Positions 19,759 through 64,000 of a stretch of 64,000 bases of DNA are shown here, piece by piece. The translations under genes were made by a program, and so were the position numbers. The stretch spans positions 80,557,093 to 80,621,092 of the forward strand of contig OX344763.1 in NCBI GenBank assembly GCA_947034895.1, read 5' to 3'. The first letter of the stretch is position 1; the number at the start of each line of letters is the position of its first letter. The notes below the pieces were generated by a model, which saw only the letters and a list, made by a program, of their open reading frames with translations, did not search any database and had not been told where the DNA came from. The stretch is from Rhytidiadelphus loreus. Taxonomy: Eukaryota; Streptophyta; Bryopsida; Hypnales; Hylocomiaceae.

Positions 19759-19816
19759 CCTATACAAATGGGGTGGGGTGGACTTGCAGTCGTCATTCCC
19801 CCTGCTTCTGTGCAAA

Positions 19817-21525: not shown

Positions 21526-22055
21526 GAGAAAGTGGGTCCTCCTCCTAATATGAGTGACTTCCTAAACCAAAAAGAAGTTTCTAGAAAGTAGTGTAAAGCA
21601 TTTTGGTGAACAATATTATAAATTTGTAAGTAAACCCCAATTTTGGATATTGCGGCTCTCTCGTGACTTAGTAAAGAAAATGCTACAATTTTTTGGGCAT
21701 TCAAAGTTCATGTGGTTTTTTAATAATTATTGTACACTTTGTAATGTGTGTTCCTGATTTATGAACTTAGTGTATTCGCAAAATATTTTGTCACATCTTT
21801 TCAAACCAATGTAGTACAAGAACACAAGACCTAATGTTGCTCAAATCAATTTTGTTATGTAATTTTATTCTGAATTTGTACTAGAAATGTTTATCTTGGT
21901 ATTTTTTGGGGGAAAACATAGCCCTAAAGACCTAACCCTATACAGGTTAAATAACCAATTGCTTCTTTTTCTAGCTAATTTCCATCGCTACTTGCATGGC
22001 TTGGTGAATTTTCAAATATTTCGAATAGGTTTTTTCCATTTTCAGTTTTTTCTTA
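21526..22055. other. AT-rich spacer, mirror of 4893-5422
   Basis: 3' flank of gene B; no gene seen. Confidence 0.5.
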
Positions 22056-22987: not shown

Positions 22988-23543
22988 TCATGATGTTCAC
23001 TTTTTCTATTTATGCAACTAAAATGATAACAATTACAATCTTCCATGAAATGAATTGAGATAATGGGATTGCTTACAATGATATACAATTTTGAATTCTA
23101 AGTAATAAAATTTAAGGTTTAGAGTTGAACTAATTTTAGAAGCTTAAATGTCAATGCAAATGACAATGTCAAAGTGAACTTCAACTTTAGCTCTTTGATA
23201 ATAAGCTTCATACAATCAGTTGTACCACATATTTGATTTTTGTTTGAAGATAGTGAAGTATTTGGAGTAGAAAATAATGTAGAATATATTTCAAAAATGA
23301 AGGCACTGCAATATTCTTGGTAATATTGCAATACAAATGTGTAGCACACAATCATAGAAGGCTCAAAGTTGGCCTATGTGCAACAAAACAAAAACACTGA
23401 AAGCTACACGCTTCTATCATATATAATACGCTTCTATATACTAGGGGTTTGACATTATATATCCTTGGACGTAAACCAAATAACCAAAGGAGAAATAAAG
23501 TCCATCTTTAAATTCTCAGACGTCAAATTCATTTGGATTGTTT
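22988..23543. other. AT-rich spacer, mirror of 3405-3960
   Basis: 3' flank of gene A; no gene seen. Confidence 0.5.
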
Positions 23544-26029: not shown

Positions 26030-26227
26030 GGTGGATTGTTGAAATGAAGGTGCCAGAAAAATGTAGAGGGATTGTTGAAATCAAACCACCAGAAAAAGAA
26101 CCTTGGATGAAAGTAGTCAATAGTAAATTTTCAACACCAAATGCTTATGCATGTAGCCAGAAAGGGATACAAGCCAAAAAGCCTTAGTGATGAACATGGG
26201 AGAATGAAGATTCGGCGACTTCATATA

Positions 26228-26640
26228 TAGGCGAACCTGGGTGTGGGTGCAAAATGGGCGCGTGCGGGTCACCTAGGCGACCAACGGTTCTGGAAGGGCG
26301 ACCAACGGTCCTGGGGAGCGACCGCGGGTTCTAGAGGGGTGACCATCAGTCTTGGAGGGGCGATCGTAGGTCCTAGGGGGTGCGCGTGCAGGTGACAAAG
26401 GGTGAGTGTGGGTCTTGGATGAGGGCAAGTACGACCACGGGTGTAGGTAGGGGCAACCGCGACCTAGTACCCATGTTCGCCTCAGACATGTAGTCGCCCC
26501 ATACCCATAGTCGCCTCATACCCGCGGTTGCCCCATACCCATGTTTGCCTCATACCCGAAGTCGCCCTATACCCATGTTCACCTCATACCTGGGGTCGCC
26601 CCATATCCGAAGTCACCCCCACCCAAAGTCGCCCTACATT
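26228..26640. repeat. GTCGCCC-type minisatellite upstream of gene A (right)
   Basis: Same array as 361-718 with about four or five more units and more diverged units, such as CATACCCATGTTCGCCTC. This length difference explains most of the 76-base difference between the arms. Confidence 0.85.
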
Positions 26641-29250: not shown

Positions 29251-29910
29251 TTAGGCTAGTAGATCACCCATTTCTTGGATATCAAAATGAATTTCAGGTT
29301 CAAGTTCTGAAGATATATCTACATTGATACTCAGAACTTCAGAATTTTCCCAAGCCAAAATGGCATCATCTGAATCATCAATTTGCGCTAATGGAGTAAA
29401 ATATTCTCCAAATCCTAAACTTCGGTAAGGTAATTCTTTAGAGACTTTTTGGGTTAGCTCTATTTCACTTTCACTTTCAGTTTGGTTTTCCAAAGTTACA
29501 TTACTATCCTCTTGTTGGGTTTCACCATGGTATGAGGTTGGATAAAGAGGTAAAATTATTTTATTATTCCCTTTTCCAATAGTAAGGGTTCCTTTTCCCC
29601 AATCATCTTTAGCTTTTGCCAAATACAACCATGGGCGTCCTAACAAGATAGGATAGGATGATACAGATTCTATGAGTTTAAAAACTATATAATCAATCTT
29701 ATAATCAATTCCACCAATAGTTGTGGTAACTTGATGAAGTATTCCAAATGGTTTTACTCTACTCTGATCAGCCATACGCAAAATAATAGGAGTGGAGGTC
29801 ATAGTTTTTAGACCTAATTCCTCCATTGTTTCAAAATTCATATGATTTACACTAGACCCACTATCAATTTGTACTCCCTGAATTAATGATCCATCTATCA
29901 CTACATCCAC
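29251..29910 (-). pseudogene. gypsy aspartic protease domain
   Basis: A 219-codon open frame with the protease active site IDSGSSVN near its N-terminus and the flap-side motif ILLGRPWL about 75 residues later, as in retroviral-type proteases. It is followed by an acidic linker towards reverse transcriptase. A stop at 29251 and a frame change at about 29910 separate it from RT and from the gag linker, so the polyprotein is broken here. Confidence 0.85.
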
Positions 29911-30229
29911 AATTGGAGCCCCAAGGTCTCTACTGTAGAAATTTCATGAATTTCAACCATTTTGGTTCTTTTGCATACTAATGATGAACTTAATTCACTC
30001 CTACACTTGGGTGAAATAGCCAGAAGTTGTTTCATACTAATTGAAGGTTGTATCTTATCCAAATTGGATAAAATATTATAGGGTTCCAAGCCTTTTGTTA
30101 ATCTCATAGATCGTGGAGATTTTTGTTTTGATAAAGGTGGGTTGTGTAATTTTGAATTTATTCTCTTTGTAGGTATTTGATAAAAATTAGGTAACAAAAT
30201 TGTTTTATCCATAGAATTATCATTTTTTG

Positions 30230-30560
30230 GAGTTTCAAGGACATCTTCCAGAAGATTGTATCATTTTTATCCATAAAAATGTCCTAACCCCAGAAAACAC
30301 CAAAAAATGATAATTCAAGGACATCTTCCAAAAGATTGTACTGCCCCACCTAGGACCTTTCCTCCTTCTGAGAGAGATTATCCTAGAAACAAACAAGTTC
30401 AATTTCAAGATCCAGATAATTCTAGACCATCTAATCATATTTCGCATACTATACCTGAGACTAGATTTTACCCATAAAATTATCCATAAAAATGTCCTAA
30501 CCCCAGAAAACAAGATGTCCTTGAATTATCATTTTTATCCATAGAATTATCATTTTTTGG
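30230..30560. repeat. scrambled and inverted segment inside gag-pol
   Basis: Three copies of CCATAAAAATGTCCTAACCCC-like or AATTATCATTTTT-like sequence lie in both orientations around 30340-30475. That inner piece has an open frame on the plus strand (opposite to the element), with proline- and charge-rich sequence (PPRTFPPSERDYPRNKQ) resembling a gag linker. This looks like a local inversion with flanking duplications after the last gag codons. Confidence 0.65.
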
Positions 30561-32127
30561 TGTTTTTATTTACCCAAGGTTTCTTAGCATCAATTTGCAA
30601 TACTTGTTTTACAACTCGTAAATTGTTTTGTACTGATGTTAAGTTCCAACATTTATGGGTAGGATGTTTTCCTCCACAAAAGTTGCAACATAGTTCTCCA
30701 TCAATATTTAAAATAGGTGATGGACATTCAGATGGCAAATGCCCATGTCCTTTGTAATTTGAACACCATACATTGGTTCTAGTATTAGTAGGTTTAGATC
30801 GCTTAATTGGGGCATTAGTGATTTGAACTCTCAAGTCAACCATTTCTTCTACTAGTTTACTTAAAAGGTCTGTTTTAGGTTCTTTTACTTCCGCTACTAC
30901 AGTGGGTTGGACAAGTTGGTTAGCATAATTTTTCGGCGGAGGTGGATAATAAGGAAAGACTCGTGTTTCAAGTTGTGGATAGACTAAATTAGGTGGGTAT
31001 ATATTAGAATCTAAGGTCATTAATTGGTCATCTCCTATCCTTGCCTCCTCATATTGCTTAGCATATTGAACCACTGTAGCCAGATCTCTAGGATTCTTTT
31101 CTTTTATTGCTATTTGAAATTCAGGTGGATATAATCCTCCTACAAAAATTCCAGCTAAATAAGAATCTAGAATCCTATGATCGGTCCAGCGTTGTAAAAT
31201 ATATTCCATCCTACCGTAGTAGTTATTAACACTTTCCCCTACAACCATTCTAATGGTTCTTAATCTTTCTTGTAGGCTTTCCGTAAAAGCTAATGGTCGG
31301 AATCTAGCTAAGAAGGCATTTCTTAAAGCATTCCACGTTTCAAATGGACCATGTGTTTGATGCCATTCTTGGGCAATCCCTAACAAGGTTGTAGGGAAAG
31401 TTGTAAGAAAATTAGCTTCTGGGATAAGATTGGCTGCACATACTATGTTGAAGCGGTTTAGATGATGATCAGGATCTGAACCTGCTAATCCATAGTAATG
31501 TGGCAAGTCTACCGAATTAAGCGATCTAGGATGAGCCATATTGATTATATCTGAAGTTTTAGAAGTCTCAAAGTTATCAGATGTTTCAAAATTTTCTGAT
31601 GACTCAGATTTTGAAGTAGTTTGGTCTAGAAATTCTTCTTCAGATAAAGTTTTTGGTGAATTTGGATCAATGGTTAACTTATTTTCTTCTTCAAGCAAGT
31701 TTATTTCTTTGTCGGTTTCAAACAAAATTTGCCCAGTGGAAATTTGTATTCTTGGTATGTTATGAGTTATTTGATCAATTCTAGGAGTTGAAAATATACC
31801 ATCAGTTGATTCATTTACAGGATTAAAGAGGGTTTCAATCCTTTCATTAATGCCTAAACTTTGAGGTCCCCAATTTTCTGTTTGATAACTATTAATAGTA
31901 TCATGGTCAAGTGCAGAAGGTTGAGAAAATAAATAGTCAATAGAAGGGATTTTAGGAAGAGGATTACGAGAAGATTCCCCTAAATTTACTTCACGAGTTT
32001 CATTTGCCAATTGAGTCTGGGAAGGATCTAATGAAGACTCTTCCTGTTCTTTAAATTTTCTTGCTAATTCATGTAAAATTTTAGGACTGGTTGGTGGGTT
32101 AACTTCTCTCGATAAGATATCATCCAA
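30550..32127 (-). CDS. gypsy Gag polyprotein
   Basis: A 525-codon open frame, the longest intact retroelement frame here. The first 200 residues are acidic and Ser/Glu-rich. The capsid-like retrotransposon Gag domain follows (from LPHYYGLAGSDPDHHLNRF through AQEWH, WNALRNAFLARF and the ATVVQYAKQYEEAR helix). Near the C-terminus are two zinc knuckles: the second is complete (CNFCGGKHPTHKC); in the first the second Cys is Tyr (CSNYKGHGHLPSEC). Gag packages element RNA in the cytoplasm. The frame ends at the scrambled segment, so it is probably C-terminally altered. Confidence 0.85.
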   Translation of the reverse strand: MDDILSREVNPPTSPKILHELARKFKEQEESSLDPSQTQLANETREVNLGESSRNPLPKIPSIDYLFSQPSALDHDTINSYQTENWGPQSLGINERIETLFNPVNESTDGIFSTPRIDQITHNIPRIQISTGQILFETDKEINLLEEENKLTIDPNSPKTLSEEEFLDQTTSKSESSENFETSDNFETSKTSDIINMAHPRSLNSVDLPHYYGLAGSDPDHHLNRFNIVCAANLIPEANFLTTFPTTLLGIAQEWHQTHGPFETWNALRNAFLARFRPLAFTESLQERLRTIRMVVGESVNNYYGRMEYILQRWTDHRILDSYLAGIFVGGLYPPEFQIAIKEKNPRDLATVVQYAKQYEEARIGDDQLMTLDSNIYPPNLVYPQLETRVFPYYPPPPKNYANQLVQPTVVAEVKEPKTDLLSKLVEEMVDLRVQITNAPIKRSKPTNTRTNVWCSNYKGHGHLPSECPSPILNIDGELCCNFCGGKHPTHKCWNLTSVQNNLRVVKQVLQIDAKKPWVNKNTKK

Positions 32128-32539
32128 AGGCTAATCTAATTCTTGTTTAGAACTCCATTCCTCACTACTTCCATCAGAGGGACTCGGTGGGTTTTTTGGA
32201 GGTGAAAGGCAAGAAGGTATAACAACAGGAATTCGTCTCCTATTTTTCCTATTTATTGCTCTTTCATCTCTCTAAACTTTTTGTAATGCTTCTCTCAATA
32301 TCCGTGCATTTGTAGGTCCAGACATTTAAAGATACCATAGATAAGAGATTTCAACAAAAATCTCATTGCACATTGGGTACCTCTTATCTCGAGCTATCAT
32401 AGACTCGAGGTAATAGGTTCCCAATGCTCAGTGAGATGTCTGTTCCATCTGCATATGGTCTCATATCACAGTTGTTTTTCCTAAAGACATTCGTTATGGA
32501 ATTACGCTCACAATCGAACGTAATCGAAATTGATTGGAC

Positions 32540-36320: not shown

Positions 36321-37116
36321 TTGTCAAGAAGTAAGAAAAAATCAAGTGACTATAGTCCCTGCTCGGCCCATCGCGTTCCTGCCCCGGCACTGTCACGTCT
36401 CCGCCCAGCCCGGCACGTTCCCGCCCCGGCACTATCGTGCTCCCAAACGACAGGGTGCGGAGGCCCCATTGTGTGGACGGTAGACTTTGGTATGAATTTA
36501 GTTATGGGATTCTTCCTTCCCATAGAGAGAGGAAAACCAATTAATGTAGTTAGCCCTTAATTTCAGCACATGGAATATCTTCAAGTCAATGGCTGCATTA
36601 AGAGGTTCAACCACTTTTTGAGTTCAAAGACAATGTATGGAAGCATGTCCCTCCCTTCCTGAGGCCGGACTTCAAGTTCTTGCCTTCATCAAGCACTTGA
36701 GAAGTAGGACCCACGTAAACCAAAAAAAAATTAGAAAATGAAATTGAACTTCTAAACAAGAAGGACAAAATTTGAATGAATAAAATCCCAAAGGGTTTGG
36801 AGTCCTCATGAAAGTCAAGGAACATATTTGTTTAAATTCGAGTTCAAGGGTTAATATTTTAATTTTCTAAAGAAAAGCAATTTGTCATTTATATTTGGAG
36901 TTTACAAATCAAACCATTACCAACATATACTTCTCTAGCTTTTGGTTTAAATCTTCATTTTCTAAATACAAAGCTACGAGGTTTTCGATTTAAATCACAT
37001 ACAAATTATAATATCTTAATATAAACATGAAGGAATTTATTCCAGGAAAAAAGGCTACAAGGATTTAGATCTAAAAAACTTCAACAAAAAACCCATGTAA
37101 TCAAGATAATAAAAGG
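36321..37116. other. spacer with a short GC-rich repeat
   Basis: At 36361-36440 a short repeat of the type CGTTCCTGCCCCGGCAC occurs about three times in otherwise AT-rich DNA. No gene is evident; frames at 36285-36560 and 36607-36825 lack motifs. It may be the outer LTR end or flank. Confidence 0.4.
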
Positions 37117-40100
37117 AGAGGGTATTGAAATGAAATACTTGTTAAGTGATTTTCGTGGTTTTAGGTCAATGGTATATTTTGGAAATGGGGACACCAAATT
37201 GGTTTGGGTCTTTGGAAATGAAATGAAGTATTACCCAAATTGTGAATGAATTCAAATATTCAATCATTGGACACCAACCATCAATTTGTGTAATGCGATC
37301 CTAGAACTCTAAACTCTACAGTGTAGGATTTAGGAGGGGTGGGTGTTAAAATGAAATAATAGTTAAATGATATAATAATTCAAGGTCAATGGTTTATTTT
37401 AGATATGGGGATAACAAAGTGGTTCGGGTCTTTGGGAATGAAATGAAGCATTATCCAAATTGTTAATGAATTCAAATATTCAATCATTGGACTCCAACCA
37501 TGAATTTGTGAGATGCGTTCCTAGAACTCTAAACTTTAGAGTGTAGGACTAAGGAGAGGTGGGTGTTGAAATGAAATGGTTGTTATCAGATTTATTAATT
37601 CAAGGTCAATGGTTTATCTTGGGTATAGGGACAACAAAGCAGTTTGGGACTTTGGGATTAAAATGAAACATTACCCAAATTGTTAATGAAATCAAATATT
37701 CGATCATTGGACTCCAACCTTGAATTTGTGAGATGCGATCCAAGAACTTTAAACTTTAGAGTGTAGGACTAAAGAGAGCTGGGTGTTGAAATGAAATATT
37801 TGTTAAGAGATTTATAATTCAAGGTCAATGGTTTATCTTGGGTATGGGGACAAGAAAGCAGTTAGAGACTTTGGGAATGAAATGAAGCATTACCCAAATT
37901 GTTAATGAATTCAAATATTCAATCATTGGACTCCAACCTTGCATTTGTGAGATGCGATCCTAGAATTCTAAACTTTAGAATGGAGGACTGAGGAGAGGTG
38001 GGTGTTGAAATGAAATATTTGTTAAAATATTTATTAAATCAAGGTCAATGGTTTATCTTGGGTATGGGGACAAGAAAGCAGTTTGGGACTTTGCGAATGA
38101 AATCAAACATTACCCAAATTGTTAATGAATTCAAATATTCAATCATTGGACTCCAACCTTGAATTTGTGAGATGCGATCCTAGAATTCTAAACTTTAGAG
38201 TGGAGGACTAAGGAGAGGTGGGTGTTGAAATGAAATATTTGTTAAGAGATTTATTAATTCAAGGTCAATAGTTTATCTTGGGTATGGGGACAAGAAAGCA
38301 GTTTGGGACTTTGCGAATGAAATCAAACATTACCCAAATTATTAATGAATTCAAATATTCAATCATTGGACTCCAACCTTGAATTTGTGAGATGCGATTC
38401 TAGAATTCTAAACCTTAGAGAGTAGGACTAACGAGAGGTGGGTGTTGAAATGAAATATTTGTTAACAGATTTAGAAATTTAAGGTCAATGGTTTATCTTA
38501 GGTATGGGGACAAGAAAGCAAGTTGGGACTTTGCGAATGAAATGAAACATTACCCAAATTGTTAATAAATTCAAATATTCAATCATTGGACTCCAACCTT
38601 GAATTTGTGAGATGCGATCCTAGAATTCTAAACTTTAGAGTGGAGGACTAAGGAGAGGTGGGTGTTGAAATGAAATATTTGTTCAGAGATTTATTAATTC
38701 AAGGTCAATGGTTTATTTTAGATTTGGGGATACCAAAGCAGTCTGGAACTTTGGAAATGAATTGAAGCGTTACCCAAATTATTAATGAATTCAAATATTC
38801 AATCATTGGACTCCAACCTTGAATTTGTGAGATGCGATTCTAGAACTCTAAACTGTAGCGTGTAGGACTAACGAGAGGTGGGTGTTGAAATGTAATATTT
38901 GTTAAGAGGTTTATTAATTTAAGTTCAATGGTTTGTTTGAGGTATGGGTATAGCAAAGCGGTTTGGGTCTTTGGGAATGAAATGAAACATTACCCAAATT
39001 GTTAATGAATTCAAATATTCAATCATTGGACTCCAACCTTGAATTTGTGAGATGCGATCCTAGAACTCTAAACTTTAGAGTGGAGGACTAAGGAGAGGTG
39101 GGTGTTGAAATGAAATATTTCTTAACAGATTTATTAATTTAAGGTCAATGGTTTATTTGAGATATGGGGATAGCAAAGTGGTTTGGGTCTTTGGGAATGA
39201 AATGAAGCATTACCCAAATTGTTAATGAATTCAAATATTCAATCATTGGACTCCAACCTTGAATTTGTGAGATGCAATTCTAGAATTCGAGACTTTAGAG
39301 TGTAGGACTAAAGAGAGGTGGGTATTGAAATGAAATAGTTGTTAAGAGATTTATTAATTCAAGGTCAATGGTTTATCTTGGGTATGGGGACAAGAAAGCA
39401 GTTTGGATCTTTGCGAATGAAATGAAACATTACCCAAATTGTTCATGAATTCAAATATTCAATCATTGGACTCCAACCTTGAATTTGTGAGATGCGATTC
39501 TAGAACTCTAAACTTTAGAGAGTAGGACTAAGGAGAGGTGGGTGTTGAAATGAAATATTTGTTAAGAGATTTAATAATTCAAGGTCAATGGTTTATCTTG
39601 GGTATGGGGACAACAAAGCAGTTTGGGACTTTGCGAATGAAATCAAACATTACCCAAATTGTTCATGAATTCAAATATTCAATCATTGATCTCCAACCTT
39701 GAATTTGTGAGATGCGATTCTAGAACTCTAAACTTTAGAGAGTAGGACTAAGGAGAGGTGGGTGTTGAAATGAAATATTTGTTAAGAGATTTATTAATTC
39801 AAGGTCAATGGTTTATTTGAGATATGGGGATAGCAAAGTGGTTTGGGTCTTTGGGAATGAAATGAAGCATTATCCAAATTGTTAATGAATTCAAATATTC
39901 AATCATTGGACTCCAACCATGAATTTGTGAGATGCGTTCCTAGAACTCTAAACTTTAGAGTGTAGGACTAAGGAGAGGTGGGTGTTGAAATGAAATGGTT
40001 GTTATCAGATTTATTAATTTAAGGTCAATGGTTTATTTGAGATATGGGGATAGCAAAGTGGTTTGGGTCTTTGGGAATGAAATGAAGCATTACCCAAATT

Positions 40101-43100
40101 GTTAATGAATTCAAATATTCAATCATTGGACTCCAACCATGATTTTGTGAGATGCGATCCTAGAACTCTAAACTTTAGAGTGTAGGACTAAGGAGAGGTG
40201 GGTGTTGAAATGAAATATTTGTTAAGAGATTTATTAATTCAAGGTCAATGGTTTATTTGAGATATGGGGATAGCAAAGTGGTTTGGGTCTTTGGGAATGA
40301 AATGAAGCATTATCCAAATTGTTAATGAATTCAAATATTCAATCATTGGACTCCAACCATGAATTTGTGAGATGCGTTCCTAGAACTCTAAACTTTAGAG
40401 TGTAGGACTAAGGAGAGGTGGGTGTTGAAATGAAATGGTTGTTATCAGATTTATTAATTTAAGGTCAATGGTTTATTTGAGATATGGGGATAGCAAAGTG
40501 GTTTGGGTCTTTGGGAATGAAATGAAGCATTACCCAAATTGTTAATGAATTCAAATATTCAATCATTGGACTCCAACCATGATTTTGTGAGATGCGATCC
40601 TAGAACTCTAAACTTTAGAGTGTAGGACTAAGGAGAGGTGGGTGTTGAAATGAAATATTTGTTAAGAGATTTATTAATTCAAGGTCAATGGTTTATCTTG
40701 GGTATGCGGACAACAAAGCAGTTTGGGACTTTGGGAATGAAATGAAACATTATCCAAATTGATAATGAATTCAAATATTCAATCATTGGACTCCAACCTT
40801 GAATTTGTGAGATGCCATTCTAGAATTCTAAACTTTAGACTGTAGGACTAAGGAAAGGTGGGTGTTGAAATGAAATATTTGTTAAGAGATTTATTAATTC
40901 AAGGTCAATGGTATATCTTGGGTATGCGGACAACAAAGCAGTTTGGGACTTTGGGAATGAAATGAAACATTATCCAAATTGATAATGAATTCAAATATTC
41001 AATCATTGGACTCCAACCTTGAATTTGTGAGATGCCATTCTAGAATTCTAAACTTTAGAGAGTAGGACTAACGAGAGGTGGGTGTTGAAATGAAATACTT
41101 GTTAACAAATTTATTAATTTAAGGTCAATGGTTTATTTTAGAGATGGGGATAGCAAAGCGGTTCGGGTCTTTGGGAATGAAATGAAGCATTACCCAAATT
41201 GTTAATGAATTCAAATATTCAATCATTGGATTCCAACCTTAAATTTGTGAGATGCGATTCTAGAATTCTAAACTTTAGAGTGTAGGACTAAGAAGAGGTG
41301 GGTTTTGAACGAAATAGTTGGTAACAGATTTATTAATTCAAGGTCAATGGTTTATTTAGATATATGGATAGCAAAGCGGTTTGGGTCTTTGCGAATGAAA
41401 TGAAGCAGTACGCAAATTGTTAATGAATTCAAATATTCAATCATTGGACTGCTACCTTGAATTTGTGAGATGCTACCCTAGAATTCTAAACTTTAGACTG
41501 TAGGACTAAAGAGAGGTGGGTGTTGAAATGAAATAGTTGTTAACAGATTTATTAATTCAAGGTCAATGGTTTATTTTAGATATGTGGGTAGCAAAGGGGT
41601 TTGTGTCTTTGCGAATGAAATGAAGCATTATTCAAATTGTTAATGAATTCAAATATTCAATCATTGGATTCCAACCTTGAATTTGTGAGATGCGATCCTA
41701 GAACTCTAAACCTTAGAGTGTAGGACTGAAGAGAGGTGGGTTTTGAAACGAAATATTGGTTAACAGATTTATTAATTCAAGGTCAATGGTTTATTTTAGA
41801 TATGTGGATAGCAAAGGGGTTTGTGTCTTTGCGAATGAAATGAAGCATTATTCAAATTGTTAATGAATTCAGATATTCAATCATTGGATTCCAACCTTGA
41901 ATTTGTGAGATGCGATCCTAGAACTCTAAACCTTAGAGTGTAGGACTGAAGAGAGGTGGGTTTTGAAACGAAATATTTGTGAACAGATTTATTAATTCAA
42001 GGTCAATGGTTTATTTTAGATATGTAGATAGCAAAGGGGTTCGTGTCTTTGCAGATGAAATGAAGCATTATTCAAATTGTTAATGAATTTAAATATTCAT
42101 TCATTGGACTCCAACCTTGAATTTGTGAGACGCGATCGTAGAACTGTAAACCCTAGAATGTCGGATTTAGGTGGACTGGGTGTTGAAATGAAATATTTGT
42201 TTACAGATTTATTAATTCAAGGTCAATGGTTTATTTTAGGTATGGGGATAGCAACGCGGTTTGGGTCTTTGAGAATGAAATGAAGCATTATTTAAATTGT
42301 TAATGAATTCAGATATTCAATCATCAGACTCCAACCTTGAATTTGTGGGATGCGATCCTAGACTCTAAATTTTAGAGTGTAGGACTAAGGAGACGTGGGT
42401 GTTGAAATGAAATACTTGTTAACAGATTTGTTAATTCAAGGTCAATGGTTTATTTAGATATGTGGATAGCAAAGGGGTTTCTGTCTTTGCGAATGAAATG
42501 AAATAGTTGTTAACAGATTTATTAGTTCATGGTCAATGGTTTATTTTAGAGATGGGGATAGCAAAGTGGTTTGGGTCTTTGGGAATGAAATGAAGCATTA
42601 CCCAAATTGTTAATGAATTCAAATATTCAATCATTGGACTCCAACCTTGATTTTGTGATATGCGATCCTAGAATTCTAGACTTTAGAGTGTAGGACTGAG
42701 GAGAGGTGGGTGTTGAAATGAAATATTTGTTAAGAGATTTATTAATTCAAGGGCAATGGTTTATCTTGGGTATGGGGACAAGAAAGCAGTTTGGGACTTT
42801 GGAAATGAATTGAAGCATTACCCAAATTGTTAATGAATTCAAATATTCAATCATTGGACTCCAAACTTGATTTTGTGAGATGCGATCTTGGAACTCTAAA
42901 CTTTAGAGTGTAGGACTAAGGAGAGGTGGGTGTTGAAATGAAATGGTTGTTAAGAGATTTATTAATTCAAGGTCAATGGTTTATCTTGGGTATGGGGACA
43001 AGAAAGCAGTTTGGGACTTTGGGAATGAATTGAAGCATTACCCAAATTGTTAATGAATTCAAATATTCAATGATTGAACTCCAAACTTGAATTTGTGAGA

Positions 43101-45195
43101 TGTGATCCTAGAATTCTAAACTTTAGAGTGTAGGACTAAGGAGAGGTGGGTTTTGAAATGAAATAGTTGTTAAGAGATTTATTAATTTAAGGTCAATGGT
43201 TTATTTAGATATGTGGATAGCAAAGGGGTTTCTGTCTTTGCGAATGAAATGAAATAGTTAACAGATTTATTAGTTCAAGGTTAATGGTATATTTTAGAGA
43301 TGGGGATAGCAAAGCAGTTTGGGACTTTGGGAATGAAATGAGACATTACTCAAATTGTAAATGAATTCAAATATTCAAGCATTGGACTCCAACCTTGAAT
43401 GTGTTGGATGGGATCATAGAACTCTGAACTCTAGAATGTAGGATTTAAATGGACTGGGTGTTGAAATGAAATATTTGTTATGAGATTTAATAATTCATGG
43501 TCAATGGTTTATCTTGGGTATAGGGACAACAAAGCAGTTTGGGACTTTGGGAATGAAATGAAACATTTATTTACCCAAATTGTTAATGAATTCAACTATT
43601 CAAGCATTGGACTCGAACCGTGAATGTGTTGGATGGGATCATAGAACTCTGAACTCTAGAATGTAGGATTTAAATGGACTGGGTGTTGAAATGAAATATT
43701 TGTTACGAGATTTAATAATTCATGGTCAATGGTTTATCCTGGGTATGGGTACAACAAAGCAGTTTGGGACTTTGGGAATGAAATGAAACATTACCCAAAT
43801 TGTTAATGAATTCAAATATTGAAGCATTGGACTTCAACCTTGAATGTGTTGGATGGGATCATAGAACTCTAAACTCTAGAATGTAGGATTTAGGTGGATT
43901 GGGTGTTGAAATGAAATATTTGTTACAAGATTTATTAATTCATGGTCAATGGTTTATCTTGGGTATGGGGACAACAAAGCAGTTTGGGACTTTGGGAATG
44001 AAATGAAACATTACCCAAATTGTTAATGAATTCAAATATTCAATCATTGGACTCTAACCTTAAATATGTGAGATGGGATCCTAGAACTCTAAACTCTAGA
44101 ATGTAGGATTAAAGTGGACTGGGTGTTGAAATGAAATATTTGTTAAGAGATTTATGAATTGAAGGTCAATGGTTTATCTTGGGTATGGGGACAAGAAAGC
44201 AGTTTGGGACTTTGGGATTGAAATGAAACATTACCGAAATTGTTAATGAATTCAAATATTTAATCATTAGATTCCAACCTTAAATTTGTGAGATGTGATT
44301 CTAGAACTCTAAACTTTAGAGTTTAGGACTAAGGAGAGGTGGATGTTGAAATGAAATATTTGTTAACAGATTTATTAATTCATGGTCAATGGTTTATTTT
44401 AGATATTGGGATAGCAAAGCGGTTTGGATCTTTGCGAATGAAATGAAGCATTACCCAAATTGTTAATGAATTCAAATATTCAATCATTGGACTCCAACCT
44501 TGAATTTTTGTAATGGGATTCTAAAACTCTAAACTCTACAGTGTAGGATTTAGGAGGGATGGGTGTCAAAATGTAATAATAGTTAAATGATCTATTAATT
44601 CAAGGTCAATGGTTTATTTTGGTTTGGGATGGCAAAGTCGTTTGGGTCTTTGGGAATGAAATGAAGCATTAACCAAATTGTTTATGAATTCAAATATTCA
44701 ATCATTGGAGTCTGACCTTGAATCTGTGAGATGGGATCTTTGAACTCTAAACTCTAGAATGTATGATTTAGGTGGACTAGGTGTTCAAATGAAATAATAG
44801 TTAAATGATATATTAATTCAAGGTCAATGGTTTATTTTGGTATGGGGATAGCAAAGCGGTTTGGGTCTTTGGGAATGAAATAAAGCATTAACCAAATTGT
44901 TTATGAATTCAAATATTCAATCATAGGACTCCAACCTTGAATTTGTGAGATGCGATTCTAGAATTCTAAACTCTAGAGTGTAGTATTTAGGAGGGGTGAA
45001 AGGTGAAATGAAATATTTGTTAAGTGTTTTATTAATTCAAGGCTAATGATTTATTTTGGGTATGGGGATGGCAAAGTCGTTTGGGACTTTGGGAATGAAA
45101 TGAAGCATTAACCAAATTGTTTATGAATTCAAATAGTCAATCATTGGACTCCAACCTTCAAATTGTGTGATGAGATCCTAGAACTCTAAACTCTA
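37117..45195. repeat. 220-bp satellite array, about 36 monomers
   Basis: Monomers of 220 bases, recognisable by GGGTGTTGAAATGAAATA, TTCAAATATTCAATCATTGG and the internal palindrome ACTCTAAACTTTAGAGT. Starts are regular, for example 38216, 38436, 38656, 38876, 39096, 39316. Between 39781 and 40660 two successive 440-base dimers are practically identical, and 40690/40910 is a near-identical 220-base pair, so local higher-order structure exists. Monomers at both edges are more diverged, and a few near 42430-42520 and 43200-43270 are deleted. No gene. Confidence 0.95.
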
Positions 45196-55060: not shown

Positions 55061-56157
55061 AAATTTGAAAAAGAGAAAAAAATAATTAAAATAATAATTA
55101 ATAAAAATACTATTAAGTATAACGATATTAAATTTTTTTAAATTATACATAAAAATAAAATGAAAAATGAAAAATAATATTAATATTATTAAGTCAACCC
55201 CCTACTAAAATCATAACTTGTCCTCAAGTTATATAGGGTTTAAGGTGATACCCACTGTAACGGGTGTCATATGGACAATGCTATTTTGCGTGCGGTGAGC
55301 GTAGAGCGTAGAGCGGTGAGCGTACTTTTGCGAGCCTAAGGCCCTCCCAAAATGTGCATATTTTATAAAAGTAAAAGTTTAAAATGAAATGTAAGCCAAA
55401 AAAAATGTAAAATAGAAAACTAAAGTACAATAGTAGGGCCCTATAGCCGTGTTTTTTGTTCGAATGTGAGAAATAATTGACCACGGTAATAGGCCACAGA
55501 AGTGGTTAAATGGTAAACTAAAGCAATTTATTGAATAAACCTATTAGTTATCCTATGGCCGTGGATACCCTATAGCCGTTGTTACTCGGAGGCCACGAGA
55601 GGAGTTCCTTAAAATAAAGTAAGGTACCCCTGGATATTATCACACCATTATTCCAAATAGAACCATTTCATATTCTTTAAAAAAATTGCAACCATGACTC
55701 CATGAGGCAGTTTCCAACAGTTAAACAATAATTGGAAATTATTGTTGAATTATTCATGTATTGAAGAGAAAAGAAATGAACTCCGCAAATATGCATTCAT
55801 AAAAATTAAATTCTGAATGCATTGTCCGATGATAGAGCAAACAGATTGCAATATAAGTTAGAGACTAAGTGACAATTCAAATCAGGGAGACTTCACATAA
55901 AGTTCCTCAAATTTTGGAGGGATCGAGTTTCAATGCAATGTATGTTAAATTATTCCACAGTATTTGAGAGCGTAGCCCAAGGCAGAAAGACTTTGAAGAA
56001 TTGAGATATTTAAGGTGAACAATTCAATTCAATTGCACTTTGAATGGACACTAAGAAGAACCATTACATTGACATATACAGATGCTGAGCATTACAAATG
56101 GAAACGTAAGATGGGGAAAAAGAATTCAAACAATATATCCGGGTGATATTTAAATTA
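55061..56157. other. AT-rich spacer downstream of the ParB/methyltransferase-like gene
   Basis: Contains AACTTGTCCTCAAGTT at about 55216, a short GTGAGCGTAGAGCGTAGAGCG repeat at about 55295, and CCTATGGCCGTGGATACCCTATAGCCGT near 55552. No coding gene is seen. It should hold the 3' UTR of the gene ending at 56158. Confidence 0.45.
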
Positions 56158-59100
56158 TCAAAATGAAAAAGAGGAGGAACTGCCAGAAGATGCTGGTCTT
56201 GGTTCCATATCAATGTTTGCCTCGTCATCAATAAAAAGACAAAGGCGTCGAATAGAACATCGAGCACTAGTCGTGGAGGTCGAAGAAGACTCTGCCGCTT
56301 GCAAGTTGGCGACATCTGAGTCCCACGGCGCCATGAAATAGTCTTTGGGCGGAGATCGGAGTGCAGTCATCAGTCTGAACCAAAGGAGTTTGTGTTAGTG
56401 AATTGATCATGAAGTGAAGAATGAAAGATGATAGGATCAAGTAAGAGACGTACTTACTAAATCTGTTCTTCTTCGTGATATGCTGAATAGGGACGTCCAG
56501 TGCAATCTGTGATGGAGGCTCGGAAGCTTCAGGTTGCATTGGAACTGGAGCTTCAACCTGTTGGAGCTGGTGCAACTTAGCCTGGAAGATCATAATGTCG
56601 TCTTTGAGGGCCGCAATGTGTCGTCCAATAACTTTGCAAGCTTGAATAGCATTACCTGAATTGGAAAGAAGGAATTTAGTATTATACATGACCCAGAAAA
56701 TGCGAAATTCATCAGAAGACAGTAGAGTACTCACCAAGAGAAGCAAATGCATCGAGGATGATAGATCCCGGCTTCGTGAATGCCTCGATCAGCATTTGAA
56801 GGAAGACTGGATCTTTCTCACGGGCGCCTCTCCACGGAACAGATCCATTCATGGATTGAGTGGCCGAAGTTGTGAAATTGAATAACACATCAGATTCAGC
56901 AACTCCCATTCCAAACTCCGCAAGTGATTGGCCGGCCGCTATAGTGAATTCGCTAGCATCCATAGCACGGTGAACGAAGAGTTGAATCCGGAATCCTCTG
57001 CTCTGGAAATGGAGATAGCGATGAAACATTATGAGAACTTGCCAAAACTGAATTACAATCTAGTGAATTCAACAATGGAACTCAAATAGTAGACAATAGT
57101 TACCTTATTTGATGCGTTGTAAAACGATGCAGAGGGAAGGTCATTAATTCCCCACCACTCTCGATGCAGAATGAAGTTGTATCCGTTTGCATAGGAGAGC
57201 ACATCAGTCCGAATCTTTGGAACATCTGGGACAAACAATAGAATGGCACCCGCACCATGAAGAAAATGTTCCGCAAACTCGAACACACTTTCAGTGTGTT
57301 GCTCTGAGTACTCATTCCAAGCAGGGACATCTCCGGGGTTCACTGAAATGGACGAAACCCAAAGGCCATCTTTAATATCGCCAAGAATCAAATCAAAGCC
57401 ACTATGTGGACATGACTTATTCAAAGCCTTGGCACCATCTTCTTTCTTAATCTGAAGATAAAGAAGATGGAAAAAATTAGTTAAGAATGATCCCAGAAAA
57501 ATGAACTAAAATTGGCATTTGCCTCACGCTACACAGAAACGGAAAGATTGTAGCACCAACACGACGTGGACACCAAAGATGAAGAATCACTTGAAGCCAA
57601 CATATGGCAGTGATTTTGAAGCGTGAAATGGCAAGGCATCAGAACAGCAACAAACCATAACTTAGCATCCTAATTTAGAGGAATACATAAGTGTAACAGT
57701 TGAATAAAAAGGCTAACCTTCAGAACGAATTTGTTAAGCATCTCGAGGCAAGAGTGCACCTCTGGAAGAGCCTCCATAATCTGATAGAGGCTAGAATTTT
57801 GAACACACACCAGCGATTTCTGGGATGATCCAGGTGACGAAGCTGCTTTCTGAGAGGCCACTGTGATTTTCAACTTTTGCGTAGTAAACGACAAGGGGCT
57901 TGATTGCCCATGAGGAGCAAGAACATCCAGATTTCGAGAATCACGAGGAGTTGGCTGCGGAGCTCTAGGCTTCACCACCTCCAACACTTCCATATCCACA
58001 TCTGGCAACGGATTTGCAGACGGTCCAGAAGCCTTTTTGGCACTCTCTTGTGCGGCCACTACCTCTGAGTCAGCCTTCTTCTTGGCACTCTCTTGTGCAG
58101 CCACAGCCTCTGAGTCAGCTTTCTTCTTCGCTTCTTCCTCGGCCTTTCTCTTTGAGCCCCTAGTCTTCTTTGCAGGTGCCTCCTTCCGGGGTGAATCATG
58201 GACCGTCTTCAACCCAACCAAATCCGGTTGCACCTGGTTCCTCAAGTCAATCTCAAAAGGAGGAGGATTGTTTAGAGAGCAGTCAATGTACCACCCACAA
58301 ACTTCCCAATGTTCCTTCTTCCACTTCTTGGCGATCTCCTCCGATATCATGCAATTCTCCGCTCGAGTGTCCAAGTAGCTTGGGAAGAACGATGGCGTCT
58401 TTGATGTGGCGTTCCGTGCATACAACACGAACTTGAAATATCGATAGAGGACCCTGGCCACAGCCTTATCCAAACCGACCTGATACTCAGGAGGATGATT
58501 CTTGTGAACTCCCTTGCCATCAAACTCATGGGCAAATGCGGTGTCCCAAAGCTGGATCCGATTCTGCTCCACATAATCAGCGATGCTAGGAATAGGACTT
58601 TCACCAAATGGTTGGTAATTGATTGTGACATCCAGCTCAGAGAGCGCCGCATCGAATAGTTCCTGCACAGCACTTGCCAACTATAACAGGGAATTAATGA
58701 CAACTCTATCGAGTGCAGTATCAAATCCAAAAAGATGAAGTGAAGGTAGGATGAAGTACCTGAGCCCACCAGGTGGCTTTGTGAAGCCACTCCGGAAAAG
58801 CATGATCAGGAAACTTGGTTTTGGGGAACCTCATTGCTTCCCTAAGCAAGGCAGGCTTGTTCCATCGCTCCAGCCATTTCACTTTCATCGCCGCGTCCAT
58901 GACCGAGGTTGACAGATACCACAACTTTTCTTGCGACATCTCTGGATCGTCTTCCCGGTTCTCATAGTGAATCTGAACTTGCTCCAGGAATTGCGGTGTT
59001 TGCCTTGGATCAGCAATTGGTAGTTGTTTCTTCACATCAGATGACATGTCCTTCTTTACTTTATCCACAGCCTTCCCAATGACGTCGTACAACTTCCCAG

Positions 59101-62100
59101 TAGTCCATTCACTTGACTTCTCCGGATATTTCTCCTTGAATTTCCTGGTCGCATGAGCTACTGCCTCACCCAGCTCTTGCTGCAAGACCAAAAAGAAGCC
59201 CAAATACGAAGTTAGCGGTGGAAAAATCACGGTCAAATGCCCGAGGACAACCACGAAAAAAAGAATGCAAAATATGGCGGTTGATAAAACTAGAGTGCCG
59301 ACATCGGCAGCCAGTTCCACAGCAAGCATCGTCCTCCACTAACTCGTTTGGCTTGTCCACAACCAACGGAGGTTCCGATATCGGTACTCCATATTAAGAC
59401 CCCGAAAGGAAACTATTGTCGCCACTAAGAAGCAACTAAGTACCGACTAAGGAACGACTCAAGCAGCAACTAAGTAGCGACTAAGCAATGACTAAGCAAC
59501 GTCTAAGCAACAACTAAGCAACGACTAGGCAGCGACTAAGAAATGACTAAGCAACGTCTAAGCAGCAACTAAGCAACGACTAGGCAGCGAATAAGCAGTA
59601 ACTAAGTAGCGACTAAGCAACAACTGAGCAACAACTAAGCAGCGACTAAGCAGAGACTGAGCAACGTCTAAGCAACAACTAAGCAACGACTAAGCAGCAG
59701 CATCTTGCAAATCACTGAAGCATACAACATGAAAATACCTGATAAAGAACCCCAATTAAGCCGTCTAACGTCAAGGTGTACCAAGTTCGAGTCTTTGATT
59801 TCTGCTTCTTCTCGGCGTCAGCTAGCTCTTCCTTGGAAACTAGATTCTCGTAATACGACAGGGGTTGGCCAGCAATACTTTGAAGTCGGTAGAGTTTATG
59901 GACAAGATTCAACTTCACATGGCATGTCTGGTTTCTCCTGTTTCAACACACTGATGTTAGAACAGAATAACAATCACACTTCCCACATAAGCATTATCAA
60001 AACAGATCTATGACTTGTGGATTACCAGTTTACTTGGTGCAATGCGGTGAGAAGTGGCCCGGTCTGGCTGTTGACCTCCAAAACTATTGATTCAACCGCA
60101 TAATGCCATGCTAGATCGTCTCCATGGTCTCTGTTAATGATTGGTAGCCAGGCCGCGAGCCGATGGTTACCATCCCAAACGAAGAACATTTTACCCGAGA
60201 ATTGCTTCCACGCGTCTTCCTTCTGGAGCTCCCTCTCAAAGTTCTCGTTTGCAGCAACCCATAACGGACTCCAGTTGGCTACCTCGGCGTCGGTCACATC
60301 CTGTGTTTTTCCCTCGTTGTCCTGCAAGGCGACATAGAAGACCCCATGGCCATCCATGTATCCGGTACTAACGAAATGTGCGCCAAGTGCCATCACATCG
60401 TTTTTCAAGTATGGGCGCACAGCAGCTAGAGCTTTCATTCGGCAGAGCGGGATGTTGAGTTTGGACTTCTCCCTTGGCTTGAAACGAAGCTTGTCCAACA
60501 CCACGTTCGTATTCACCGACTCCTGCACGACCATCTTGTCCATTTCCTTGCCAAGCTCCTCGGCTGTCATCTCCGTCGTTGCCTTATCAGCCTCATGAGC
60601 GTCTTGGGAGGTCTGCACATCCTCGTTGTCTACTTCCTCTGTAAATACAAACTTCGTTAGCAACGGGGCCGCAAAATAAAATATCTTAATAAAACGTGTT
60701 TAAAGATACTCACCCAACTCGAGAATGTCAGGCTGTGATGATGATTCCAGGCCAGACCTTAAAGGATTCCTTCCAGCATCTGTCATATCCTCCGATTGAC
60801 CTACACAACGACAAAATCTCAGTACAAATGACAAGTGTAACCAGTTGTCAGTGGTTCCAGAATGAGGTAGGACGCAAACAGAATCCCTTTGGAGGGAGTG
60901 ACTCGAGGCAAGGGGGTGCTATTGAATCAAGCAACATCCCGTTGGAGGGAGTGCCGCCATCGGCACCCCTTCCAAAGGGGTGCTGCTTGCGTCGACAGCA
61001 CCCCCTTGGGAGGGCTGCCGATGGCGGCACTCCCTGCAACGGGGTGCTGCTCGCGCAATTGGCACCCCCTTGGAGGGAGTGCCGATGGTGGCACTCCCTC
61101 CAACGGGGTGCCAATTGCGAGATGATAAGTAATCCATTGCAGGGATTTACCTCCTGTGGTCGTCGTCGTCTCCTCTTGATTCTTCTCGTTCCCTTGCCCC
61201 ATTTGCGCCTCTGTTGTAGTCATTGGGGTAAGATTCGGCACTTCCTCGTCCGCTTTTACGGCGCTTTCCGTGGTTTGTTTCCGCCTTGTAGCACCTGCTG
61301 GAATCCATAATGCAAATGTCAGTGCGATCTTGGACGTCAGTGGTCAAGTGGACTAGATGCGCATACATTAACTTCTGTGCTTCACGTATCAAAGGCGATT
61401 CAAGTTGACAGGAGAGATTGAGAAAACTAAACTGTCGCGCCTCCGAAGCCCTTAAGCAACCCCGTAACCGATCATTGAGTCCTTAACCCCGAACGCCATT
61501 ATAGACGCTACCTTAGAGCTCAGACACTGTCGGAACCCCTAAACCCTAAATTAATAAATCCCGTGACCCTTCTGTGAATCCTAATGCCAGTCCGTAAATA
61601 CAAACCCAATCTTGGAGGTCAAACTCTGTTGCGACTGTGAAACCATGGCGGAAAAAGAAATGCCTGCCTTGTATTCTGTACCTCCCAAAATAATGCAAAT
61701 CCCGTCGCGGTTGCAATGCTCTCACCGGAATCCAGAACCCTGCCGCGTAATATAATTCCCGTCGTGACTACAATGCACCCGCAGAAAACCAAAATCCAGC
61801 CGTGTAATAAAACTCCCGTCGCGGCAGCAATACACTCGGGGGAATCCAAAACCCTCCCACTCCACTTTAAACTCAATTTTGGGTTCTTCGGAGAACACTG
61901 AAAACAGACTTTCTCTCGCAGGTCACAGTTTTGGGTTCTTTAATGAAACAGATGTCTTTGTCTCTAGACAGTTGCTTACAGGGCAATCGGACCGCGGAAT
62001 TCGAGATAAAAAATACGGTGTCCCTCGGTGGACAAAAAAAAAGTCTCGTAGTCTAACTCATTACTCTACACAGGACGCAATGAAATTGTATAACACATCT

Positions 62101-62605
62101 TCTGCGTGACTCAAAAAGAAAAGAGGTGCCCACAAGACGCAAGCTGGGCCAATACGTAAACATGATATGCTGGAGTAATATCCTTTACCCAATGCAGAAG
62201 GTAATGCGCACTACACCTTCATGAAATCCAACAATGATGATAGGAGTCTAACCAAAAATTAGAGCATTTCGCATTACCTCTCTCTGGAGTGGTTTCTCTA
62301 CTCGATCCTTCTGCATGATCACCAGCATCCTCATCAGGTGTACTTCCGCTTTCGCTGCGGGCTGGGGGGGAACTCTCTGGAAGTCCTTCCCCCATCGTCT
62401 CCTCTGCAATTCTGGTAAGGCTAACTAATGGAAGACCCTGAATCGTGCTAACTGATGGTTCTACACCAGCAAATTCTAGGACCCTTGCAGTCTCTCCAGC
62501 ATCGGCTATCCTAGCATTTGATCGCAACTCCCTCAGAATCCGAGACTTCTTCAAGCGCTTCGGGTTTGTAAAATACAGAGCTTGTCGTTTTCTTCTCTTT
62601 GGCAT
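56158..62605 (-). CDS. multi-exon gene: ParB-like motif plus permuted DNA-methyltransferase-like domain
   Basis: Exons by GT-AG sites and matching phase: 62605-62278, 61297-61151, 60800-60714, 60638-60026, 59937-59739, 59179-58760, 58680-57718, 57451-57104, 57002-56735, 56655-56458, then a last exon to 56158 whose acceptor is unsure (one choice stops at once). No internal stops through exon 10, about 1,190 residues. Exon 1 is basic and then acidic. Exon 4 has FFVWDGNHRLAAW near residue 343, the GxHR motif of ParB-like folds. Exon 7 is Lys/Ala-rich with a repeated KKADSE-VAAQESAKK unit. Exons 8-10 follow type-beta amino-methyltransferase order: FDLILGDIKDG at the DPPY place, a glycine turn and strand (HGAGAILLFVP), then KDPVFLQMLI and ILDAFASLG with AC..IGR at the AdoMet site. 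DPPY and the FxGxG glycines are not kept, so activity is doubtful. A ParB/methyltransferase fusion is the best guess. Confidence 0.65.
59405..59700. repeat. 12-bp minisatellite in intron 5
   Basis: Tandem CAACGACTAAGC-like units (variants CAGCGACTAAGC, CAACAACTAAGC, CAACGTCTAAGC), about 24 copies inside the intron between exons 5 and 6 of the minus-strand gene. Not coding. Confidence 0.88.
60880..61130. repeat. GC-rich repeat with long inverted arms in intron 2
   Basis: Repeats of GGAGTGCCGCCATCGGC and its reverse complement, and of GGGGTGCTGCT, alternate in both orientations and could fold into strong hairpins in the pre-mRNA. All six-frame open frames here are repeat artefacts. Confidence 0.8.
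61682..61860. repeat. 57-bp minisatellite in intron 1
   Basis: Two full 57-base units and a partial third, each starting CCCGTCGYGR and ending GTAATAWAAYT. They lie in the long first intron (62277-61298) of the minus-strand gene; the rest of that intron shows no gene. Confidence 0.8.
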
Positions 62606-63425
62606 TCTAAAGGATGTAGGAATTGATTACCATTTCCACTCCTCGCAATACTAATTACCCTACTCCATTTTATGTATGATAACTGCTAGTCACGTTTTAT
62701 TTCAAGTGCAGGCGGCAGAAAGACCTAGTAACTTAGTCCGACGGGGTGTTAAACCCGTCGGACATGCCAATAAACACGAATGATTGCAAGTTTAAAATTC
62801 AAGTTACAATTACTCATGGCATCATTCCATTCTTGCGGGCCTCCTTTGAATAATGGATGGACGGTCTCTGGAATTCGTAGGGCTGCCAAGGCTCATTTAA
62901 AATGAAGCTGAAAATCATTGAATATTCTGACACATCTATTGACGGTCGACCGCCGGCAGTACAATAAACGGGATGAAATGTAGTTATGGGCCTACAGGCT
63001 CCAAATTACATTTGGAATACTTCAATCTGTTCAAAGAGTGTTTCTCTATTCCATAATAAACATAGGGACTGCGCATACAACCACGCCTACTTTTAACATC
63101 TAGTCTAATTAAATGATTGTAAGTTGTGCATTTAAATATCATCCTAGTTGCAACTACCTACGGATCGTATTGTGTTCACTATAACTGGGAACAAATACTA
63201 ATTGAATAGAACGTGTACCATCAGGCTTGGTTCAGTTCTACATTGCCTTCATGAACGACTACATGGCGGCTTGTCTGGAGTTATGACATGGGCAGATTGT
63301 ATTGACGTAGTCCTAGAACCCTACATTATTTATGCAAGGAATTCAGTACCTACATTTAACTTGTTCCGCATTTTGCACCTCGGTTACAGGTTTGTTGTAT
63401 TGTGTCCTCTTGAGATTAGGTTGCC
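62606..63425. promoter_or_regulatory. divergent intergenic region between two genes
   Basis: 820 bases separate the minus-strand ATG at 62605 from the plus-strand ATG at 63426, so this region should contain both promoters. No convincing TATA box is apparent for either gene. The only strong structure is the hairpin at 62736-62763. Confidence 0.5.
62736..62763. other. perfect 10-bp stem hairpin
   Basis: Arms GTCCGACGGG and CCCGTCGGAC with an 8-base loop GTGTTAAA. It is GC-rich in an AT-rich surround, 130 bases upstream of the minus-strand start codon. It is not followed by a T run, and bacterial terminators are irrelevant here. It could be a protein-binding palindrome or the remnant of a transposon end. 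Confidence 0.7.
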
Positions 63426-64000
63426 ATGGCTACCTCGGTCGTTGCCGTCCCTAATGCGGTTCTAATTCGAGGAGATGGAGCAACAATGCCTATTTCGTTC
63501 GTAGTGGGGGAGGATGGCTTCGCTAGAGTTACTGGATCTCGCTTGGCTTCTAGGTTTCAGATTATGGAAGGTACTTTGCATTTGGATCTGGATGTTATGA
63601 ACCCAGTCTCGAGGCAGGTCTCTCACACTGTAGCGCAGTTGTCATGTGACTCTCTTGGGGGTGAGGTGTGGTCTTTGTCACCCGGAAACTATCGCGTGTA
63701 TGGAATGAAGGACAATGTAGTTGATTCTACAGCTAGACGTGGGATGACATTGGATGTCACCCCAATGCTTCGGAACGTCAAATTAGAACATGTCGACAGT
63801 CCTGTCCTTGTTCTTAGTGATGATTCTGATAGTGATTGCATCCTTCCCACGCCTGATTTCACTGCTCCCGACCTTGTAGGCCCCCCGGTTGAGCGTGCAG
63901 CTTCCGTTCCTGAGTCATGTCCTGCCCGTAGTTCAACTCCATCCATTTGTAAACCTCCCTTGCCAGCTGCTGAGAGTATCATCCACTGCCTACGCCAATT
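63426..64000 (+). CDS. unknown protein, 5' part, runs off the window
   Basis: ATG at 63426 in a GCCATGG context opens a frame of 191 codons with no stop up to the window end. The first 100 residues look globular, with beta-type hydrophobic spacing (SFVVGEDGFARVTG, LHLDLDVMNP). Near residue 128 VLVLSDDSDSDC is a textbook SUMO-interaction-motif pattern: a hydrophobic core followed by acidic and Ser residues. The rest is Pro/Ser-rich and probably disordered. It is divergent from the ParB/methyltransferase-like gene and, like it, free of the stops found elsewhere in the window. The family is not recognised; it could be a host gene or the partner gene of one mobile element. Confidence 0.6.
   Translation, partial: MATSVVAVPNAVLIRGDGATMPISFVVGEDGFARVTGSRLASRFQIMEGTLHLDLDVMNPVSRQVSHTVAQLSCDSLGGEVWSLSPGNYRVYGMKDNVVDSTARRGMTLDVTPMLRNVKLEHVDSPVLVLSDDSDSDCILPTPDFTAPDLVGPPVERAASVPESCPARSSTPSICKPPLPAAESIIHCLRQ

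Follow-up and report, generated by a model that had tools for sequence, protein, structure and literature searches.

Relatives of nucleic-acid-modifying enzymes are encoded by mobile elements such as KDZ transposons, with TET/JBP enzymes, and DIRS elements, with Dam-like enzymes, and the N4CMT enzyme of bdelloid rotifers is active. Phages and prophages carry ParB-CTPase-fold and N6_N4 methyltransferase domains in one protein (PMC12704722). Mutator-like elements (MULEs) produce target duplications of 8-11 bp and some of them have no terminal inverted repeats (PMC6446971), and the noncoding regions bound by the VANC proteins of VANDAL elements take the form of fast-diverging tandem repeats (PMC10398659). 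Here, we describe a gene found in a 64,000-nucleotide stretch of the moss Rhytidiadelphus loreus (contig OX344763.1, positions 80,557,093 to 80,621,092; hereafter the window), which is very probably a transposon-borne accessory gene joining a ParB fold to a methyltransferase-derived domain. The gene structure, the element ends, the target duplications, the dispersal of copies, both folds and the two-gene layout support this identity directly, the second fold coming from the modest model of a relative. Transposons with accessory epigenetic genes are known, as are phage ParB-methyltransferase fusions, and their combination in a eukaryotic DNA transposon is apparently new: it was not found in print in the open-licence literature, the “ParB” of the consulted part of PMC3493329 being an unrelated abbreviation of Paramecium bursaria.

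The locus differs from the KDZ elements with TET/JBP and the DIRS elements with Dam-like enzymes in enzyme, transposase and element type. It resembles the phage ParB-N6/N4 methyltransferase fusions (PMC12704722) in having both domains in one protein, a likeness already drawn in a first-pass annotation of the window and strengthened by structure comparison, in which the top viral match to exon 4 was a Mycobacterium phage Vincenzo protein annotated as DNA methylase (E 4.1e-3), perhaps itself such a fusion. However, the moss gene encodes 1262 amino acids with a long middle region, is spliced, lacks DPPY and resides in a eukaryotic DNA transposon, and no close sequence match was found. Like the Arabidopsis VANDAL elements, it combines a MULE-type transposon, an accessory gene and subfamily-specific noncoding tandem repeats (PMC10398659, PMC5735166), but the consulted parts of these articles link VANC to neither a ParB nor a methyltransferase fold, and an anti-silencing role could be extended to the moss protein by analogy only. 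MuDR and other MULEs share with it a SWIM-like motif, an extra open reading frame (ORF) often antisense to the transposase and the duplication range into which its 10-bp duplications fall (PMC6446971), whereas the transposase here lies below Pfam detection and the word “methyltransferase” has 0 occurrences in the main text of that article. Finally, the rotifer N4CMT is also a bacterial-type amino-methyltransferase fold in a eukaryote (PMC8885841), but the gene described here is transposon-borne and its motif IV is altered.

Gene structure

A beam search over splice sites placed the gene at 62605-56158 on the minus strand, with 11 exons, 10 GT-AG introns and a single open frame of 1262 amino acids, where this length and base composition would lead one to expect about 66 stop codons. 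The runner-up solutions differed by shifts of 1-4 residues at the acceptor of exon 2 or exon 4 or at the donor of exon 5. Because exons resembling exons 4 and 8 recur elsewhere in the genome, the model is not due to chance and, judged from its sequence, the gene is real, at this place and on this strand. The first-pass annotation had described an intact gene with ten phased introns; the intact frame and the number of introns are confirmed, but the phases are mixed (0, 1 and 2). The motifs lie in the predicted exons: DGNHR in exon 4, FDLILGD in exon 8, and KDPVFLQM and ILDAFASLG in exon 9. The exons, all given by the splice search, are as follows.

62278..62605, minus strand: exon 1, start codon and basic N-terminus (similar N-termini in L109 and L110)
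61151..61294, minus strand: exon 2
60714..60800, minus strand: exon 3
60026..60638, minus strand: exon 4, ParB/sulfiredoxin-fold domain with DGNHR (AlphaFold, fold matches, family alignments)
59739..59937, minus strand: exon 5
58760..59179, minus strand: exon 6
57718..58680, minus strand: exon 7, long middle region with a 45-bp tandem repeat in two copies (no Pfam match)
57104..57451, minus strand: exon 8, first half of the permuted methyltransferase-type domain, with FDLILGDIKDGL at the place of motif IV
56735..57002, minus strand: exon 9, PWRGAREK at the place of motif X and ILDAFASLG (motif I)
56454..56655, minus strand: exon 10, ACKVIGRHIAAL (motifs II-III)
56158..56374, minus strand: exon 11 and stop

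Intron 2 holds a G+C-rich repeat (60938-61112) of GGGGTGC...GCACCCC units, the copy number of which differs among element copies.

The transposon and its copies

The gene is contained in a DNA transposon of 12,786 bp (55273-68058), the right end of which lies about 4 kb beyond the window. An inverted pair (55279-55315 / 68009-68052) marks the element ends, and the terminal inverted repeats are imperfect and about 22-26 bp long, which is short for a MULE. The element contributes the following features to the window.

55263..55272, no strand: left target-site duplication GGTGTCATAT, its partner lying directly right of the element (window-equivalent 68059-68068)
55273..64000, no strand: part of the transposon inside the window, its left end common to all eight other fetched copies
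55273..55298, plus strand: left terminal inverted repeat GGACAATGCTATTTTGCGTGCG..., an imperfect match to the right end ...CGCACGCAAAATAGCAATCCCC
63426..64000, plus strand: start of a divergent transposase-like gene extending to about 67400 (L006:1519-5493)

The ends of eight other copies were fetched. The left end was present in all of them and the right end in seven of the fetched stretches, that of the eighth copy being found by pattern just outside its stretch (C4:66856947). The main end stretches of young copies were 96.6-99.8% identical to those of the window. Target duplications of 10 bp, read by eye, were found in 8/8 copies with both ends read, window included, one of them being readable as 10 or 11 bp. 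These clean ends, duplications and amplified copies bear out the proposal that the gene is carried by a large mobile element, and not its domestication, the other option then offered. Indeed, domestication as a host gene amid old repeats would account for an intact frame with many introns, but the gene has moved, the window copy and seven others having 10-bp duplications and near-identical ends, and this explanation is hardly credible.

Genome searches returned 150 scored matches for exon 8 (the best of 1,010 candidates), 150 for exon 4 (the best of 1,339 candidates) and 129 for the transposase-like ORF (of 1,329 candidates). Counts from these three lists are lower bounds, the unscored candidates having received a first look only; a few copies give two matches. 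The matches were spread over five large contigs of 51-94 Mb in a genome of 407 Mb, the window lying on C3 (84.8 Mb). A bacterial contaminant was rejected given the introns, the 84.8-Mb contig and the dispersed copies. Strong ParB_N matches occur instead on small contigs, above the cut-off on C199, C234, C293 and C308 (L001-L005), which are likely bacterial contaminants or associates.

A 39-base right-end pattern occurred 32 times at up to 3 mismatches, and its reversed control 0 times. Twelve of these right ends belong to a derivative class with 79-84% identity in exon 8, where 11 of the 12 carry two TAGs. For this class (loci including C1:13.65M, C3:49.15M, C3:51.25M, C3:77.37M, C3:82.77M, C4:17.67M and C5:29.24M), distances obtained by subtraction put the right end of 11 members at about 6.8-7.7 kb from exon 8, some 3-4 kb nearer than the 10.5 kb of the window copy, and that of the remaining one at about 23 kb.

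Transposase-like gene and two-gene layout

In two close copies without stops, the transposase frame is open over 782 amino acids. Motifs read by eye comprise ERTCLxHW (CxxH) in four of four copies, FMAD in three of four, and CxC...CxH in the three copies that reach that part; we take these CxxH, FMAD and SWIM-like CxC...CxH patterns to resemble those of MULE transposases. No Pfam match was obtained at E<=10 with pieces from two lineages (L109 and L110), nor any relevant one at E<=1 with the window element, and no match in NCBIfam or PDB was convincing. As no transposase family match is available, the MULE assignment rests on the duplication length together with the CxxH and SWIM-like motifs, and by its sequence the element may be called MULE-type, which is short of a proven MULE.

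The layout is recurrent. The divergent transposase-like gene was found upstream in the three other lineages read (6-kb stretches), its central part being 76.5, 74.3 and 65.0% identical, for lineages with 77, 46 and 40% exon-4 identity to the window. Genome-wide, 59 of the 129 scored transposase matches have an exon-4 or exon-8 match in divergent arrangement and 18 have both, against chance expectations of 0.29 and 0.44 for the two exon lists; one exon-8 neighbour (C3:77.37M) is arranged otherwise. At 35 of the 150 exon-8 matches, exon 4 occurs on the same strand and always in the same order, at a distance of 2.45-3.49 kb, and other arrangements of the pair were found at 0. MULEs tend to acquire host gene fragments (PMC6446971), and the gene might on this ground be a captured host gene or fragment, a passenger without function for the transposon; but it adjoins the transposase-like gene in lineages this far apart, and omega, the ratio of replacement to silent substitution rates, is near 0.1 in most usable pairs of relatives, which leaves this possibility very improbable. 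Both a passenger and a domesticated gene were thus rejected on mobility, linkage and constraint.

The same linkage to the transposase-like gene, in the lineages read, would be expected if the protein mainly aided transposition by binding the ends or subterminal DNA and gathering the transposase, with the methyltransferase fold serving for DNA contact only. The spreading of ParB-CTP clamps along DNA (PMC12704722) is consistent with such a helper, but the derivatives have spread with a broken accessory frame, perhaps helped in trans, and as the main role we regard it as rather unlikely.

The ParB-fold domain

The AlphaFold model of exon 4 (predicted local distance difference test score, pLDDT, 87.2) matched the ParB/sulfiredoxin (ParB-CTPase) fold by structure comparison. 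The ParB-like reading of this exon, for which a non-ParB fold had been named as the contrary outcome, is therefore upheld. DGNHR was invariant in the 11 aligned members of the exon-4 family and presumably sits at the place of the GxRR/GGCHR-type motif (GGCHR in sulfiredoxin). PF02195 was matched by none of these 11 members at E<=10, exon 4 alone gave nothing useful against Pfam, PHROGs and NCBIfam, and a profile of the ParB exon found no ParB match among PDB sequences; hence the fold comparison was needed to recognize the domain. Weak matches to DUF1015 (0.0062) and KMP11 (0.0051), each in one of the 11 members, were discarded. Of the marks of a canonical ParB of ParABS systems (helix-turn-helix and C-terminal dimerisation domains, a parA neighbour), Pfam found no helix-turn-helix in the six ORFs scanned (exons 4-9), and a pattern scan of viral contigs with exon 4 gave seven matches, none of them a relative.

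The methyltransferase-derived domain

PF01555 was matched by 12/12 members at E<=1 (best 2.9e-8), the window’s own member scoring 20.8 bits, below the cut-off of 26.7, and CcrM could be aligned to the family over profile positions 16-230. The permuted motif order IV - X - I - II - III was found together with a Rossmann-type fold, as in a beta-class N6A/N4C DNA methyltransferase. Each of Foldseek ranks 1-40 was a DNA amino-methyltransferase, and 12 reached E<=0.001, the query being the model of a relative rather than of the window copy (pLDDT 63.7, without the motif IV strand). These profile matches and this fold agree with the permuted methyltransferase-like domain previously proposed for exons 8-10, where another fold had been named as the outcome against it.

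The loss of DPPY, also reported from the window alone, extends to the whole family. Neither DPPY, nor (D/N/S)PP(Y/F/W), nor an aromatic residue at the fourth position of motif IV was seen in any of the 15 aligned members, and both DPPY and such an aromatic residue were likewise absent from the database proteins covering motif IV. As it is common to all 15 members, this loss is a family trait and not the decay of one copy. In most members motif IV reads D-x-P-E/D-G-L, some being further off, and in the window copy GDIKDGLWV. Alignment A1 shows no variation at the acid (D26) or at G30-L31. Five of the 15 members have precisely DCTASTG as motif I, and the rest have variants of it (DAFASLG in the window). 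Since every aligned member lacks the motif IV aromatic and has one or both prolines replaced, ordinary amino-methylation by this domain is unlikely.

Nevertheless, the domain might still methylate DNA through a changed active site (D-x-P-E/D) and so mark element DNA (N6-adenine, N4-cytosine or other) to alter chromatin. The motif IV acid is kept in all 15 aligned members, the last glycine of motif I in 14 of 15, constraint is strong in the relatives, and the N4-cytosine enzyme of bdelloid rotifers, bacterial-type in a eukaryote, is among the structural matches of the methyltransferase model (PMC8885841). Such activity would have to accommodate, besides the missing DPPY and aromatic residue, an asparagine in place of the acid in database protein P0007, an altered glycine pattern in motif I (the usual earlier glycine in 0/15 members) and a window copy devoid of both the motif IV proline and the acid that follows RHIVAL in 14 of the 15 members. 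We consider it unlikely.

Relatives and origin

A search with the whole protein (residues 187-1190) against a set of 5.8 billion proteins gave no match at E<=0.01. Unlike it, searches with family alignments did give matches, and those to the ParB-type exon numbered 425, from metagenomes or databases. None of the family-alignment matches carries a bacterial name, and the only organism named, in matches to the methyltransferase part, is the moss Ceratodon purpureus, whose KC19_5G032000 (P0001) is a family member without the N-terminal part and may be a fragment model of a transposon gene. More broadly, where moss genomes have gene models resembling ParB or methyltransferases, these may belong to transposons. 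The ancient bacterial or phage capture suggested earlier is plausible from the folds, but the absence of bacterial-named matches does not favor it, and the phage tblastn matches are partial, limited to the methyltransferase part, with a best E of 5e-6.

Selection

Omega for exon 4 was 0.106-0.156 in 8 listed pairs, with silent-site divergence (dS) of 0.41-1.44. For exons 8-10 it was 0.082-0.152 in seven of the eight listed pairs excluding the window copy (dS under 1.8).

Tandem arrays

An array lies within an intron of the accessory gene.

59424..59699, no strand: tandem array in intron 5, 11-bp unit ACTAAGCAACG, about 25 units, candidate binding array

An 11-bp array (ACTAAGCAGCG) of 19-36 units was found at 16 of the 17 loci L060-L076 and at L082, and was absent from the 77% lineage (L077-L081) and from the derivative L087 within the stretches examined. 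In loci L083-L086 (54-60%) the arrays lie on the opposite side of exon 4 and have a 7-bp unit, AGCATTC, accompanied by a 96-bp repeat in three of the four. The parallel between these subfamily-specific arrays and the targets of VANC proteins is suggestive only.

Proposed function

On balance, the best explanation as a whole is that of an accessory gene of a MULE-like DNA transposon family. According to the mechanism that we propose tentatively, and with slightly less than even confidence, the accessory protein would bind the element’s own DNA, with its ParB-type domain serving as a switch or clamp that depends on a nucleotide and its methyltransferase-type domain as a module that binds DNA or SAM (S-adenosylmethionine) and has lost ordinary methylation. 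The protein would thereby shield or activate the element against host silencing, or aid the transposase; taken together, an anti-silencing or transposition-helper role is fairly probable. A more specific version is that a phage-type ParB-methyltransferase fusion was made into a nucleotide-gated clamp in a large, undescribed group of eukaryotic DNA transposons, loading on intron arrays (11-bp units here, different units in other subfamilies) and blocking silencing, with the methyltransferase part as reader or sensor. This version is improbable; if true, selfish anti-silencing would have arisen independently of VANC.

Several observations weigh against the accessory-gene explanation. The best Z of the methyltransferase model is 7.9, no higher than for models without a clear match; in our view, the uniform Foldseek list is the stronger point in favor of the modeled fold. 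The methyltransferase part of the window copy has diverged beyond most others, with K after RHIVAL where the 14 others have E. The transposase-like protein has no convincing match among Pfam, NCBIfam or PDB families, and one of four copies (L108) has N for the D of FMAD. In the window copy, a stop separates L006:1513-2943 from 2944-3861 within the transposase frame. This copy may thus need others in order to move, which lowers only the claim that it is autonomous. The shorter derivatives have spread, which implies that the accessory protein is not needed in cis and, if needed, can act in trans. Regarding selection, four very close exon-4 pairs gave omega of 0.21-1.31 with few changes, and the eighth exons 8-10 pair gave 0.406. 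Moreover, silent sites are saturated in all 14 exons 8-10 pairs that include the window copy; the constraint figures therefore hold for the relatives.

The gene places a bacterial and phage architecture (ParB with an amino-methyltransferase) in a eukaryotic transposon family with at least 129-150 scored matches per probe in one genome. Should the protein act on silencing, it would be a second, unrelated case of a transposon encoding its own epigenetic counter-defence, and the setting would probably be that of an early land plant. The family also offers a test of what a methyltransferase fold without DPPY does.

Other features of the window and flank

The window also contains a 6,979-bp inverted repeat (379-7357 / 19591-26569), the arms of which are 100% complementary and separated by a 12.2-kb spacer; it may have arisen by recent palindromic duplication or be a large element. 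The spacer holds a kinase-like ORF (16009-16584, plus strand; Pkinase 2e-8). A second kinase-like ORF lies just right of the transposon (L006:8115-8837, minus strand; Pkinase 0.0034, below cut-off) and by eye is like that of the window. On the minus strand at 29251-32130, ORFs match a retrotransposon gag (1.3e-10) and, weakly, an aspartyl protease (0.0019, below cut-off). Finally, some 36 copies of a satellite are arrayed at a period of 220 bp from about 37000 to 45000.

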